Of a DNA stretch of 64,000 bases, positions 6,555-14,763 are shown one piece after another; the first letter of the stretch is position 1; each line of letters opens with the position of its first letter. Below the pieces are notes generated by a model. That model saw only the letters and a program-made list of their open reading frames with translations, ran no database searches and was not told the origin of the DNA. The position numbers and the translations under genes are program-made. This DNA is from Oidiodendron maius Zn (taxonomy: Eukaryota; Ascomycota; Leotiomycetes; Myxotrichaceae): positions 5,270,001 to 5,334,000 of the forward strand of contig KN832870.1 of the NCBI GenBank assembly GCA_000827325.1, in the 5' to 3' direction.

Positions 6555-7955
<1,401 letters not shown>

Positions 7956-8424: not shown

Positions 8425-10533
8425 TTACAAATCATAGTTCGCATTTTCTTGCAAACTCCATCCATATTCTGGAAATGCATTCATGGCATTGAAAATACCT
8501 TCCTGCGTCCAGCGAAAGCTATGATCCCTCTCATCAAGGACCGTCTCAAACAGATCCCAAACATCACTAGCCGCCTCTCCTTCGCCGTAAGATATATGTC
8601 TACTCTCGGGGTTGGCTAGTGGGGGCAGCCCATTATCAGAAGAGCGGCTCATAGGCAGCATATTCAGGGAGGACTTCCTAATCTCGTTTGGTCGGGGAGC
8701 TGAACTGCCTTCAATTGTTGCTGAAACCAAGCTCTCAAATGCGTTCTTAACTTTGCGGGTGGCCGGCCAGCGTTCGGCGATCACATATAGGACGGTGCTG
8801 CACGCGCGGATGTCGCTGCTGAATTTGCCGTCGAAGATGGATCGATCCACGGAAAAGCAGTAGACCATGACGAGGCCAGCCACGAAACTGGCATGCAGTG
8901 CCAGGAGAGAGTATGATATGTATTGTTGTTTGTCGTGTAGTAATTTATATAACTGGCAGACTTGACCTGCTGCAAATGCACACAGGCGAAAGTCAGGGTC
9001 CATGGATGTGAGGGATGGAAGAAACGGCAGCAGAAGAAGGAGAGTGCCTTTGTAGTACTGAATCATATGGTACTCTGACATGTTGTAAGGGATCACTTCA
9101 TCTTCCGATGCTGGGGGAATGACGTCCCATATATGGTCTTTCCAGTTTTCTAATTCAGCCCGTAGTCGTGTAACCTTATGGGGCTGGATAGCTGAGATGG
9201 GTTTGTCAACTCTATATAATGTTCGGTGTATCTTGGACTCGATTCGTTGAACTCGAACGATATGAATAGCAGGAGAGAGAGCTGTGATTTGGTATGGGAA
9301 CTGCGAGGCTCGCTCAATCGCGGCGACGAGCTCTTCCTCGTGCTCAATTTCATCCGATACGTTGGCCGGAAGCTCAACATCGATTTCTCGGTCAGTGACA
9401 CAGCATGGGCGCCCTAAAGTTCTTGCAACCGACCGTTCAAGCATATACACCGTCCAGAATAGACGCTTGCGCTGCTGGTCCAATAATACTGGGAGATTAG
9501 ACTTTCGATGAAGTCCACTATCAAGACAGTGACGCATAACAACACCAATCATAGACCATAATCCAGGACCGCTTGGGGATCGAAGCTGATATAATGCAAG
9601 CAGAAGCATGCATTGCAAATTCGTAATACTCTGGACATCGAAAACTAGATCAATGTCGAGAATCGCCGAGGCATAGTGAGCCTCGGGCGAGACGTAGTCG
9701 CTATCTCTAGACAGTTGAAGATATCTTGCTCCAATGGCATATACCATGTGAAGCATGAACCAGTCGAGTCTGTTTTCCGGTGGCAATTGTTGTTTGCGCA
9801 GATCTTCAGATGCTCGTAACTGCAGGCGACGCTCATTGAGCTGCCGTAACCTTGCTCTAGAGAGAAAGGGGTGCTTTGAATGTACTTTATGAATGTATGC
9901 CATGATCAGCTTATCCGCCACCGGTTGTCGAGGCATGGTTGCTTTCACAAATACGGCTCCATCGTCCCCCGTCTTTCGAACTCCGTCAACAGTAGCCGCA
10001 CTTTCTCCAATATCATCTCCATGGCTGCGCTGCAAGGCAGATTTATTTATGGCAGATTGAATAATCTTAGCTAACGGTGCGCCGCTCGATGCACCCAGGT
10101 ATGCATTGGGCGACAGAGCTACGATCCCCGTTCCCGCTTCAAGTAGTTTTGCGGCGTCCCCATTCCCAATATAGTCTGGGGTCCTAGAGATTTCCACTGT
10201 ATTTGGACTCAGGTTCACAGATGGACTGGAATAGCTCTGCTGCCTCGTCGCTCTTCGCTCTGTTTGGCCGTCTGATTCGTGCGCCTCTAGCCTCTGCTCC
10301 AGGCGTACGATCTGTGACTCCAGAGATGCAACGTACTCCGGCGGGTATATGACGTTGTTGACGCCGTATATGCAGTTGGCTCCCTCCCCCGCCCCAGTAC
10401 AATTGCCGCATGAGGGGAATCCATTGTCACAACGTTGCTTACGCTGCTTGCATCTCTGGCAGGCAATAGCACTTCTGGCTCGCTTAGGAGGCGGAGCATC
10501 GTCGGCAGTGCCGCAATGTTGTGGTGTCCGCAT
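8425..10533 (-). CDS. Zn2Cys6 fungal-specific transcription factor, probable regulator of the adjoining PrpD/MFS module
   Basis: A single exon of 702 residues, normal for the family. The binuclear cluster is C25, C28, C35, C42, C45, C54 (CX2CX6CX6CX2CX8C), preceded by a basic stretch (KRAR). A short leucine-patterned coiled coil at about 62-88 implies dimer binding to inverted CGG half-sites. The fungal-trans middle homology region spans about 210-400, including a LWSMIGVVMRHCLDSGLHR-type helix and the RLFWTVYMLER motif. Its own promoter carries two TCGG-N5-CCGA palindromes 129-159 bases before the ATG. The same motif occurs twice in the divergent promoter of the PrpD-like enzyme and MFS gene next door. 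I infer an autoregulated pathway-specific activator. The inducer is unknown. Confidence 0.9.
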   Translation of the reverse strand: MRTPQHCGTADDAPPPKRARSAIACQRCKQRKQRCDNGFPSCGNCTGAGEGANCIYGVNNVIYPPEYVASLESQIVRLEQRLEAHESDGQTERRATRQQSYSSPSVNLSPNTVEISRTPDYIGNGDAAKLLEAGTGIVALSPNAYLGASSGAPLAKIIQSAINKSALQRSHGDDIGESAATVDGVRKTGDDGAVFVKATMPRQPVADKLIMAYIHKVHSKHPFLSRARLRQLNERRLQLRASEDLRKQQLPPENRLDWFMLHMVYAIGARYLQLSRDSDYVSPEAHYASAILDIDLVFDVQSITNLQCMLLLALYQLRSPSGPGLWSMIGVVMRHCLDSGLHRKSNLPVLLDQQRKRLFWTVYMLERSVARTLGRPCCVTDREIDVELPANVSDEIEHEEELVAAIERASQFPYQITALSPAIHIVRVQRIESKIHRTLYRVDKPISAIQPHKVTRLRAELENWKDHIWDVIPPASEDEVIPYNMSEYHMIQYYKGTLLLLLPFLPSLTSMDPDFRLCAFAAGQVCQLYKLLHDKQQYISYSLLALHASFVAGLVMVYCFSVDRSIFDGKFSSDIRACSTVLYVIAERWPATRKVKNAFESLVSATIEGSSAPRPNEIRKSSLNMLPMSRSSDNGLPPLANPESRHISYGEGEAASDVWDLFETVLDERDHSFRWTQEGIFNAMNAFPEYGWSLQENANYDL

Positions 10534-10964
10534 CGTGTATTGATGGGAGAAGTATTTATTGATTAATTTGTACAGATGCAGAAGGTGACGAGTTTCGAGA
10601 TTTACCAGTCAATCATAACGCTGCTGTGCTGGAGATGGATGGAGGTTCGGCGAGGGGGATTTCGGCTGACCCGAAGAGTTCGGGTCAGCCGAGTACGTGG
10701 GGCGGATTTACTTCCCTAAAAGCTAGGATACTGGCACGTACTACTAGAATTTACCGTGAGACTGGATTTGAAGATCAGCACGCAGGAAATTTGAAGAGAT
10801 TCTTGATGCACAAAGTGACCATCTTCATTGTGAACGCTGATATGAAAATTAAGAGACTAAGACTATGTATATCTGGTGAGAATCTATTGTGATGCATGCA
10901 AGCTCTCCCAACCATGCCAACTCTATATTCTAAAATGCCAATGCCTCTTATACATCGTATGCCG
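10534..10964. other. Intergenic: promoter of the Zn2Cys6 gene and 3' flank of the PrpD-like gene
   Basis: About 430 bases between two minus-strand genes. It contains the perfect inverted repeat at 10662-10692, listed separately. Nothing else was recognised. Confidence 0.5.
10662..10692. promoter_or_regulatory. Inverted pair of TCGG-N5-CCGA sites in the regulator's own promoter
   Basis: Left site 10662-10674 (TCGGCTGACCCGA) and right site 10680-10692 (TCGGGTCAGCCGA) are exact reverse complements of each other. Each is itself a CGG-N5-CCG inverted half-site pair, the usual target form of a dimeric Zn2Cys6 factor. The pair lies 129-159 bases before the start codon at 10533. The right site matches 12905-12917 at 12 of 13 bases. 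Binding by the neighbouring regulator is inferred. Confidence 0.65.
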
Positions 10965-12417
10965 TCAAATTGCTTTCGTTACTTCCCTTACATCTGTAGA
11001 TTGCTCAATATTCCACAATGCCGTGCTCACGTCGTCAAGTTTATCCTCAAGGATGGATACGCACTGATCCCGGAATTTCTCCTCCAGCATCTTATTCGTA
11101 AGTGGTACTTCCGTACTGCCTACCGCGTGTAATACATGCTTCTCTAGCATGGTTCCATCATTCATAGTCAGAACAATCTTGGTCTCATCGGCTCCCAGAG
11201 TCAGATCTGCCGTGGCATTGACCTTGTCTCTGACAGTAATGACATGTGTGCTTTGCACAACTGCATCTTCATACTGGCTAGGAGTTCCCTTTCCATAGAT
11301 AAGCCCAATCGCAGCGCCGTGGTAACAACTGAATTTCCCTTCCAAGCCATCTTTTGGTGTACGCTTTCCGGTCAGCTCCAACACCAACGGGTGGACACTC
11401 AACTCGACAGACTTGATGTCCTTAACATGTAAGGAGTTAGAGGCCATATCGTGGTGAAGCTGCACGCAGCCGTCGATAATCGGATGTATAACGATCCCAC
11501 AAGGGAACGGTTTGAAGCTATTCCTTAATATCTCCCATCTCCCGGCTCGCTGTGCAGTGGGTAAACCAAGATTTTGACACTGAGACGTCGGCTCGAATCC
11601 TAGCCACTTCTCCAAGCTTTTATCCAGACCCTGTTTCATGACACCGACGACATTTGCCCATCCTCTTTTTGCCTCTAATGCTTGCTCGCTGCTAGTGTAT
11701 CCACCTTGGGCTAACACAGCAGCCATAAGTCCATTCTGAGCGGCACGACCAGGATGGAATGATTTCGTGTGCGAACCGAACATCTCTCTGAGCCCGACGA
11801 CCTGAGTTGCCGCAAGCCCTATGGCATGTGCAGTCTGTGTCGAGGACAGGGAAAGGAGTTTTGAAACCGCAACAGCTGCACCGATTGAGCCTGTTGTGGA
11901 GGTAATATGCCATCCTACATCATAATGCTCAGGCCACACGGCCAGACCGACTTTGCACTCGGCTTCAATGCCAGCCGTGAGTGCAAGCAGGAAGTCCTTC
12001 CCGGAAAATCCTCCTTTCCATTCGGCGACAGCCAAGAGCGCACTTGCAACTGGGCCGGTGGGATGGATAATAGTGTCTAAATGCGTGTCGTCATAGTCAT
12101 GGACATGCGATGCGATGCCATTGAGAAGAGCAGCGTGTTGAGCATCAATGCACACTGTACCCTTATGGCCAAGGAGAGAAGCTACTGGAGAGCCAAAAAA
12201 GGGCTTTAGAGCATCGTGCTGGTATTTCTGTAAGTAGACTGCTTCGGTACGGAATCACTCAATATCTCACGGCTATTGTCGTTGCGGGATGATTGCTGCC
12301 GCCGATAGCACATCCGGCCCAGTTGTAGAAGCTGCGGACGGCTGCCGCAATGACTTCTTGAGGGAGATCAGAGTACTTCAGCGTGTTAACCCAGGAAGCT
12401 AGATAATGAGTGGCCAT
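10965..12417 (-). CDS. MmgE/PrpD-family protein (2-methylcitrate dehydratase-like fold), substrate unknown
   Basis: Exons 12417-12271 and 12227-10965 (43-base intron, phase 0) give 469 residues, the family's usual size. MmgE/PrpD proteins include 2-methylcitrate dehydratase, cis-aconitate decarboxylase and many fungal members of unknown substrate; all act on small polycarboxylates or similar acids where tested. Visible landmarks: HVHDYDDTHL at 90-99 with D93 and T97, then H104; GWH before TTGSIG; and K in SHTKSFHPGRAAQNG, which line up with active-site positions of cis-aconitate decarboxylase. In the second half FKPFPCGIVIHP has Cys-Gly where that enzyme has its catalytic His. I therefore do not call it a decarboxylase. 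No targeting peptide is obvious. It is divergent from the MFS gene and follows the Zn2Cys6 gene, suggesting one catabolic module. Confidence 0.85.
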
Positions 12418-12685
12418 ATCTAATATCGATCGCGGAAAGGAAAGAAGACAACAGACAATTAAGGGAAAGAATGAAGTGAAGGAGAAGTAAGAGGAGAGCA
12501 GAGGAATAAATTCACGGTACGCGATGAAGTCGATCAAAGCAGATCCGGACAAGATCATATCCGATACCCTTGGAAGTGGATATTACTGCATCATATCTTC
12601 CATAGGATGTCCCGATTCCATCTCCATAAAATTTCTTCACAAGGCGTATAAGAGAAAGTTGTTAGGGGAAAAGAAGTCGAGGCCA

Positions 12686-12698
12686 TCGGGTTTTCCGA
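12686..12698. promoter_or_regulatory. TCGG-N5-CCGA site, PrpD-proximal
   Basis: TCGGGTTTTCCGA, a CGG-N5-CCG pair 269 bases before the PrpD-like start codon and about 355 before the MFS start. It shares the eight fixed bases, and the first spacer G, with the right-hand site in the regulator promoter. Regulator binding is inferred. Confidence 0.5.
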
Positions 12699-12904
12699 CG
12701 GCCCCGGGAATATCGGTGGCGAGATGACAGTGAGATCCTTTGACTTTAGAAAGCTAACTCCCCGGGAGGAACGTTTGTAAGTTTTCTCCACTGCAGATCG
12801 GTAATCTGCCAGAATGACAACCCTCCTCTTCGTGTACGGAGTACGAGAGAATGGGGGACCTGGGGTTTGTGGGGTCTCCATCATGATGACCGCTGAGGGG
12901 GCTT

Positions 12905-12917
12905 TCGGGTCTGCCGA
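12905..12917. promoter_or_regulatory. TCGG-N5-CCGA site, MFS-proximal
   Basis: TCGGGTCTGCCGA, 137 bases before the MFS start codon. It differs at one spacer base from 10680-10692 in the Zn2Cys6 promoter. The conserved spacer suggests recognition by the same protein. Confidence 0.6.
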
Positions 12918-13053: not shown

Positions 13054-14763
13054 ATGGCTCCATTTTTCGGGCTGCGCGGAAATGCGCTGAGTGCAGCGAT
13101 GATTTGGGCAGTTATTATGCCCGCCTACATTCTGTAAGTTGACATACTGGAGTATCTTTACTGAACACAAAACTAAGTTGAACATAGCTTTGGGTACAAC
13201 AACTCGGTCGGGGGTGGTCTGCTGAGCTTGCCAGCTTGGATCGAGACATTTCCACGTATCAACACGTCGACCACCACTGGAGCGCAGAAGACGAATAATT
13301 CAAGAGTCCAAGTATGTATCTTATAAAGTACTTCACGCCGTTAATCTAACGATCGTAGGGGACGGTTATAGCAATGTATACGCTTGGCTGCTTCTTTGGA
13401 GCTATGAACTGCATATGGATTGGTGACAAACTTGGACGAAAACGCACAATTATGTTGGGTGCATTCATAAACATCATCGGAGCAATTATTCAATCCACGT
13501 CCTTTTCACTGGCTCAGCTTATAATCGGCCGGCTCGTGTCAGGCCTCGGATTTGGTGCGCTTACTGCCACGGCTCCAAACTGGCAATCAGAATGTTCAAG
13601 AGCCAGTCACCGAGGATCTGTAGTGCTTTTGGAGGGCTTGTTTATTAGTTTGGGTCTAGCCATAGCGGCTTGGATCAACTTCGGCATGTCGCATGCTCAC
13701 GGAAGCGTCACGTTCAGATTTCCTATGGCGTTGTCGGCATTGTGGTCCATCATAGTGATCGCGATGGTGCCCAACATGCCCGAGTCACCACGTTGGCTAA
13801 TCAAACACGACCGAGTTGGCGAAGCTAGAGAGGTCCTTTCGGCCCTCGCTGATCTACCTGGGAACTCTCCTCAAATCGACGCAGATATATCGGAGATTGA
13901 AGAGTCCCTCCTGATCACCGGAAAGGGCAAGTTCAGCGATATTTTCAAGCCTAGCGAGCAGAGGCTCTTTCACCGAGCCTGTCTTGCCGCAGCTGGACAG
14001 ATGTTCCAACAGATGAGCGGAATAAATGCCTTGGCCTTCTATCAAAATACCATCTTCGAACAAGATCTAGGCTTGTCTTCAGAGATTGCAAGGATTCTGG
14101 GCGCATGTGTTTTTACATTCCAGACGCTGTGCTCTCCAATTGGTGTCTTAACTGTGGACAAACTTGGAAGGAGGAAACTGATGATGTTCGCTGCATTCGG
14201 CATGGGATCGTGCATGGCAATTATTGCTGGGACTTCGTCGCAGAGTCATAACACGTCGTGTGTAATTGCAGCTGCCGTTTTCATCTTCATGTTCTCGTTC
14301 TTCTTTCCCACTGGCTTCCTTGGCTTGACATTCCTCTACGCGTCGGAAATTTCGCCTCTAAGCGTACGAGTTCCAATTACATCCATCTCGACAGGGAGCG
14401 CCTGGCTTTTCAACTTTCTGGTAGCTGAGATCACACCCGTTGGATTTGCAACCTTGGGATACAAGTATTATATCATATATGCCTGTATCAATTTCTTCTT
14501 AATATTGCCAGGTAAGTCAAAGCATAGAGGAAAGAGGACAATACTTATTATGCACAGGTGTATATTTCCTCTTCCCTGAGACCAGTGGCCGTCACTTGGA
14601 GGAAGTGGACCAGATATTTCTTGATAGCAAAAACGTCTTCCAAGTCGTTGCGACAGCTCGGAAGATGCCAAAGAGGGGAGCTTCTCGTGAAGCTGTCTTG
14701 GGAGAAAAAGTGTTGTCCAATCATCTTGAGAGTGGTAGTCCTAAGCCCACGACTCACCAGTAG
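13054..14763 (+). CDS. MFS sugar-porter-family transporter
   Basis: Plasma-membrane transporter of the sugar porter family; substrate not predictable from sequence. Exons 13054-13133, 13188-13311, 13359-14511 and 14558-14763 give 520 residues with twelve hydrophobic helices. Family signatures are complete: GDKLGRKR after helix 2, PESPRWL before the central loop, QQMSGINALAFY in helix 7, DKLGRRK between helices 8 and 9, and PETSGRHLEEVD after helix 12. The first exon supplies an N-terminus typical of fungal members (FGYNNSVGGGLL in helix 1, then TTGAQ in the first outer loop). It is divergent from the PrpD-like gene with two putative regulator sites between them, so it probably imports or exports the compound that enzyme handles. 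Confidence 0.92.

Follow-up and report, generated by a model that had tools for sequence, protein, structure and literature searches.

A candidate zinc-cluster regulon in Oidiodendron maius with TCGG-N5-CCGA sites before the regulator, a MmgE/PrpD-family enzyme gene and an MFS transporter gene

We examined a 64-kb window (the whole stretch of DNA that was analysed) of the Oidiodendron maius Zn genome, which comprises 45.9 Mb on 58 contigs and by its gene content points to a filamentous fungus. The results suggest that a pathway-specific zinc-cluster regulator acts on its own gene as well as on those of a MmgE/PrpD-family enzyme and a sugar-porter-type MFS protein, through inverted CGG triplets separated by five bases (N5). 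We give this reading, which was drawn from the sequence, a probability of about 0.7. The sites with their positions, spacing and clustering, as well as the families of the encoded proteins, were observed directly. Exactly four copies of TCGG-N5-CCGA occur in the window, each outside the gene models of the regulator (8425-10533), the PrpD-family enzyme (10965-12417) and the MFS transporter (13054-14763), and the window search together with these models confirmed both the coordinates and the intergenic location given in the first-pass annotation. The features, in window positions, are the following:

8425..10533, minus strand: Zn2Cys6 regulator gene, 702 amino acids, one exon; Zn_clus at residues 24-56, Fungal_trans at 212-466
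10662..10674, minus strand: site 1, TCGG-N5-CCGA reading TCGGGTCAGCCGA on the minus strand, 129 bp upstream of the regulator ATG; left arm of the inverted repeat
10662..10692, no strand assigned: perfect inverted repeat, 14-nt arms and 3-nt middle, with sites 1 and 2 in facing orientation
10680..10692, plus strand: site 2, TCGG-N5-CCGA reading TCGGGTCAGCCGA; right arm of the inverted repeat
10965..12417, minus strand: MmgE/PrpD-family enzyme gene, 469 amino acids, exons 12417-12271 and 12227-10965, intron inferred from sequence
12686..12698, plus strand: site 3, TCGG-N5-CCGA reading TCGGGTTTTCCGA, 269 bp upstream of the PrpD ATG; weakest spacer match
12905..12917, plus strand: site 4, TCGG-N5-CCGA reading TCGGGTCTGCCGA, 137 bp upstream of the MFS ATG
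13054..14763, plus strand: MFS transporter gene, sugar porter family, 520 amino acids, four exons, introns inferred from sequence

Geometry of the sites

Sites 1 and 2 lie 129-159 bp before the regulator ATG, and sites 3 and 4 are found in the divergent promoter, a 636-bp gap between the PrpD start codon (12417, minus) and the MFS start codon (13054, plus). The likeness of the spacers, already noticed in the first-pass annotation, is real: TCGGGTCAGCCGA occurs twice, the 13-mer of site 4 is identical to it except for one base at a distance of 2.2 kb, and the spacer of site 3 has only GT in common with the others. The form common to all four sites is TCGGGT-N3-CCGA, while the stricter form TCGGGTCNGCCGA fits three of them. 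No TCGG-N5-CCGA was found upstream of the thiolase gene (open frame 6682-7788), nor anywhere else in the window beyond the four. When spacings of 0 to 20 were scanned with TCGG/CCGA half-sites, the two promoters gave five matches, four of them N5, and every other spacing had at most two matches in the whole window.

Sites 1 and 2 are one 13-mer in opposite orientation and form the arms of a perfect 14+3+14 inverted repeat, so that they are not independent and the four copies amount to about three independent events. The number and places of the copies in the first-pass annotation therefore stand, but their independence does not. Folded as a single DNA strand, the segment 10652-10702 forms a very stable hairpin (-18.2 kcal/mol, z -8.4, with none of 200 shuffles as stable), which, if transcribed, could also act in the leader RNA. 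The inverted repeat could thus be a hairpin in its own right, either a cruciform or an RNA hairpin in the regulator leader, with an incidental likeness to the sites of the divergent promoter. Such an explanation leaves the near-identical 13-mer 2.2 kb away unaccounted for, a search of the region of sites 3 and 4 having found no inverted repeat of at least 10 nt, and we hold it to be very improbable.

Clustering and chance

Shuffling of the window gave a mean of 0.98 TCGG-N5-CCGA, with four or more in 3 of 100 shuffles, and the genome-wide count (484 in 45.9 Mb, against 690 for the reversed control) predicts 0.67 per 64 kb. The motif being common and not enriched genome-wide, the evidence resides in its clustering. 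The first-pass annotation had proposed a genome-wide count, with many evenly spread hits speaking against a link; matches proved to be many, whereas the TCGGGT-N3-CCGA form clusters nowhere else. Its 46 strand-wise matches fall at 45 places, four of the matches being in the window (reversed control, 71), and no other two places in the genome are within 2.3 kb of each other. As for TCGGGTCNGCCGA, three of its eight genome-wide matches are in the window (reversed control, 7); manual reading placed four of the other five within open frames of 120 codons or more, and the fifth outside.

Under a Poisson model, 0.001 clusters of four sites in 2.2 kb are expected per genome, or 0.14 clusters of three sites when the inverted repeat is counted once, and 0.002 pairs of TCGGGTCNGCCGA are expected within the observed distance, the last value being post hoc. 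In first-order Markov simulations of the two promoters, three or more sites arose in 0 of 20,000 runs and two sites in 2 of 20,000. These statistics are somewhat flattering, as the motif was picked after the pattern had been seen. This post hoc choice, the absence of genome-wide enrichment and the three-site expectation are what can be said for chance, that is, for GC-rich half-sites brought to N5 by luck with a second copy arising through local inverted duplication. We nevertheless regard chance as highly improbable given the likeness of the spacers, the rarity of TCGGGTCNGCCGA pairs and of simulated three-site promoters, and the fact that every site falls in one of the two promoters through which a local regulator should act.

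The regulator

The assignment of the gene at 8425-10533 to the Zn2Cys6 class was upheld by Zn_clus (PF00172, 32 bits against a cut-off of 21) and Fungal_trans (PF04082, 108.7 bits against 23), along with six cysteines spaced by gaps of 2, 6, 6, 2 and 8. The Fungal_trans middle domain is common, although not universal, in Zn2Cys6 regulators. For the first 105 residues the nearest PDB match is Ppr1 (E 3e-05), closely followed by Hap1 (4.4e-05), and the alignment to Ppr1, a sequence comparison, extends across the region expected to hold a linker and a dimer-forming coiled coil. The stretch between the sixth cysteine and the YV at the start of the coil counts 12 residues in the regulator as opposed to 14 in Ppr1, and the regulator's last zinc loop is two residues longer. 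In its own genome, the best other match to the regulator is just 27% identical (residues 64-619), and the genome thus offers no further copy whose sites could be compared.

At least 150 Zn_clus matches were found in the genome (150 scored of 614 first-look candidates), and the total of such proteins is probably several hundred. Among 50 listed of the 484 TCGG-N5-CCGA sites, one lies within 4.1 kb of a Zn_clus match (contig C1), which is a rough baseline, both lists being partial; the regulator of contig C5, for example, is missing from the 150 Zn_clus matches.

The neighbouring genes

Pfam domain searches were made with the main exon of each neighbouring gene. That of the PrpD gene carries the N- and C-terminal domains of the MmgE/PrpD superfamily (PF03972, 189.1 bits; PF19305, 112.7 bits; cut-offs 32.1). 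Identity as 2-methylcitrate dehydratase proper was rejected, the NCBIfam equivalog scores being 26.9 against 575, 23.8 against 458 and 21.2 against 950 bits, and similarity to IRG1/cis-aconitate decarboxylase is about as strong as to iminodisuccinate epimerase. The MFS protein exceeds the sugar porter cut-off of TIGR00879 (277.9 against 237.8 bits).

The PrpD protein is nearer to bacterial proteins than to its paralogues in the same genome, the best-scoring of which is 31% identical, with shorter matches up to 36%. The highest bacterial value, 53%, was obtained with a protein from an Acidocella MAG (locus L052), in which the PrpD relative sits beside a second PrpD-like gene (below the family cut-off) and an MFS gene, a pairing of PrpD and MFS genes that speaks for the regulon proposed here. 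In both of the bacterial loci examined out of 15, L052 (Acidocella) and L059 (Pseudomonas), an adjoining open frame matches a PrpD model below its cut-off. Horizontal transfer of the gene at 10965-12417 is possible on these comparisons. A separate group of PrpD genes, with three PrpD-like matches within 7 kb, is present on contig C17 (193263-200253); no TCGG-N5-CCGA was found there in the stretches examined. More generally, TCGG-N5-CCGA was absent from all six stretches examined, each 3.5-4.3 kb long and spread over four contigs, that surround other PrpD-like matches.

These counts bear on a further explanation, in which the sites are real operators read by a zinc-cluster protein encoded elsewhere, such as a broad carbon regulator, the local gene being merely a target. 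The abundance of Zn_clus proteins in the genome would allow it, as would the TCGG half-sites that many zinc-cluster proteins have in common. Under a broad regulator one would expect more clusters, but TCGGGT-N3-CCGA clusters only at the local regulator gene and the six stretches around other PrpD-like matches hold no site, which makes this explanation rather unlikely.

Paired N5 sites elsewhere

Two N5 sites at most 30 bp apart occur at four places in three loci genome-wide (reversed control, 0), each having a Zn2Cys6 gene no more than about 4.5 kb away: in the window, on contig C5 (L018) and on contig C13 (L019). The paired spacers face each other in 5, 5, 4 and 4 of 5 positions, and the C13 pair also agrees as a direct repeat in 3 of 5 positions. 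For the other spacings, pairs were found at 0 places for N6 (reversed control, 0), 1 for N4 (1) and 2 for N7 (1), one N7 pair also facing in 5 of 7 positions; N5 pairs with a gap of 31-61 were found at no place in the genome or in the reversed control. With just 1.5 kb searched on each side, a Zn2Cys6 motif was seen at none of three N4/N7 places and at one of three N5 places outside the window, a comparison too short to be decisive.

Paired N5 sites were dropped as a genome-wide mark of local zinc-cluster regulons, C5 and C13 being better explained by other spacings. On C5 the repeated unit is TCGGCCGA (N0), with four copies in one promoter and two in the other, and on C13 the second member of the pair also reads TCGGTCCGA (N1), so that N5 is probably incidental at both. 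The C5 locus (about 1456656-1461955; L017:7656-7824, L018:2922-2955) comprises a second Zn2Cys6 gene flanked by two MFS genes, and the TCGGCCGA palindromes in both of its promoters likely represent a local operator of N0 type. On C13 (L019:4681-9743, L025:6380), another Zn2Cys6 gene, accompanied by MFS and M20-peptidase genes, is surrounded by five TCGG-N5-CCGA in a span of 10 kb; next to one of these matches, visual inspection showed a tandem array with a unit length of about 21 bp (L019, about 9530-9710).

CreA-like SYGGRG sequences number two in the regulator promoter (0.43 kb) and five in the divergent promoter (0.64 kb, about 8 per kb), against a background of 4.1 per kb, and were dropped as a lead, the motif being too short to build on.

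Discussion

The proposed system belongs to a known kind of circuit, ordinary in its arrangement and unusual in its spacing; the facing double site in the regulator promoter is its second unusual point. Ppr1 binds inverted CGG triplets, and both Ppr1 of yeast and UaY of Aspergillus recognise CGG-N6-CCG. Ppr1, the best solved match of the regulator's DNA-binding part, thus resembles the present case in its inverted CGG and short spacer but differs, like UaY, in having a spacer of 6 instead of 5; TCGG-N6-CCGA has one match in the window and none in the two promoters.

Two other systems share the TCGG/CCGA half-sites. As described in PMC5469009, the Zn2Cys6 regulators PDR-1/RhaR of Neurospora and Aspergillus have the inverted motif TCGG-X11-CCGA and act in the rhamnose/pectin pathway, and in Neurospora predicted sites lie both in the promoter of pdr-1 itself and at catabolic genes whose locus numbers are consecutive. 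That layout is akin to ours, whereas the spacer of 11 and the pathway set it apart, and TCGG-N11-CCGA has no match in the window. GliZ, a local Zn2Cys6 regulator, has predicted TCGGN3CCGA sites in the promoters of its neighbours in the gliotoxin cluster, according to PMC4006717 and PMC7022936; as of 2014 the site was unproven by experiment and the promoter of gliZ itself was without a predicted one (PMC4006717). The spacer of 3, the bare own promoter and the secondary metabolism distinguish it from the present system, and TCGG-N3-CCGA is not found in the window. General statements on zinc-cluster dimers and CGG pairs appear in PMC5559640, and CGG-N5-CCG is one of three motifs in the cdr1B promoter in PMC5215518. 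The spellings TCGGN5CCGA and CGGN5CCG were not found in the literature search, and a query combining PrpD, Zn2Cys6, MFS transporter and Aspergillus gave nothing related, judged by title.

The gene family, the inverted CGG triplets, the constant spacing and the agreement of both promoters support the reading of the first-pass annotation that the regulator acts on itself and both neighbours; from them we infer binding, the dimer, the direction of control, an inducer and a pathway. The Zn2Cys6 protein of 8425-10533, most likely a homodimer, would bind inverted CGG triplets five bases apart (TCGGGT-N3-CCGA). Feedback control would be exerted through the facing pair in its own promoter, and joint control of the PrpD-type enzyme and the sugar-porter-type transporter through sites 3 and 4 of the divergent promoter. 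When a small carbon compound is present, its uptake and breakdown would probably be switched on, and the uptake and metabolism of one compound would be coupled to the regulator's own level.

A more speculative proposal, which we consider doubtful, is that zinc-cluster operators with N5 make up a separate spacing class, in which the spacing is determined by the segment joining zinc cluster and coil, some two residues shorter here than in Ppr1, and that the facing double operator, where the centres of two bound dimers would be about 18 bp apart, gives cooperative autoregulation. The 12-residue stretch, two shorter than Ppr1's, fits N5 beside the N6 of Ppr1 but proves nothing.

By proposing an operator and two genes as targets, together with a likely pathway of carbon uptake, the analysis makes a hitherto uncharacterised regulator testable. 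If the proposed regulon is true, an N5 case would join the known spacings N3, N6 and N11 of zinc-cluster operators and would bear on how the linker sets the spacing.
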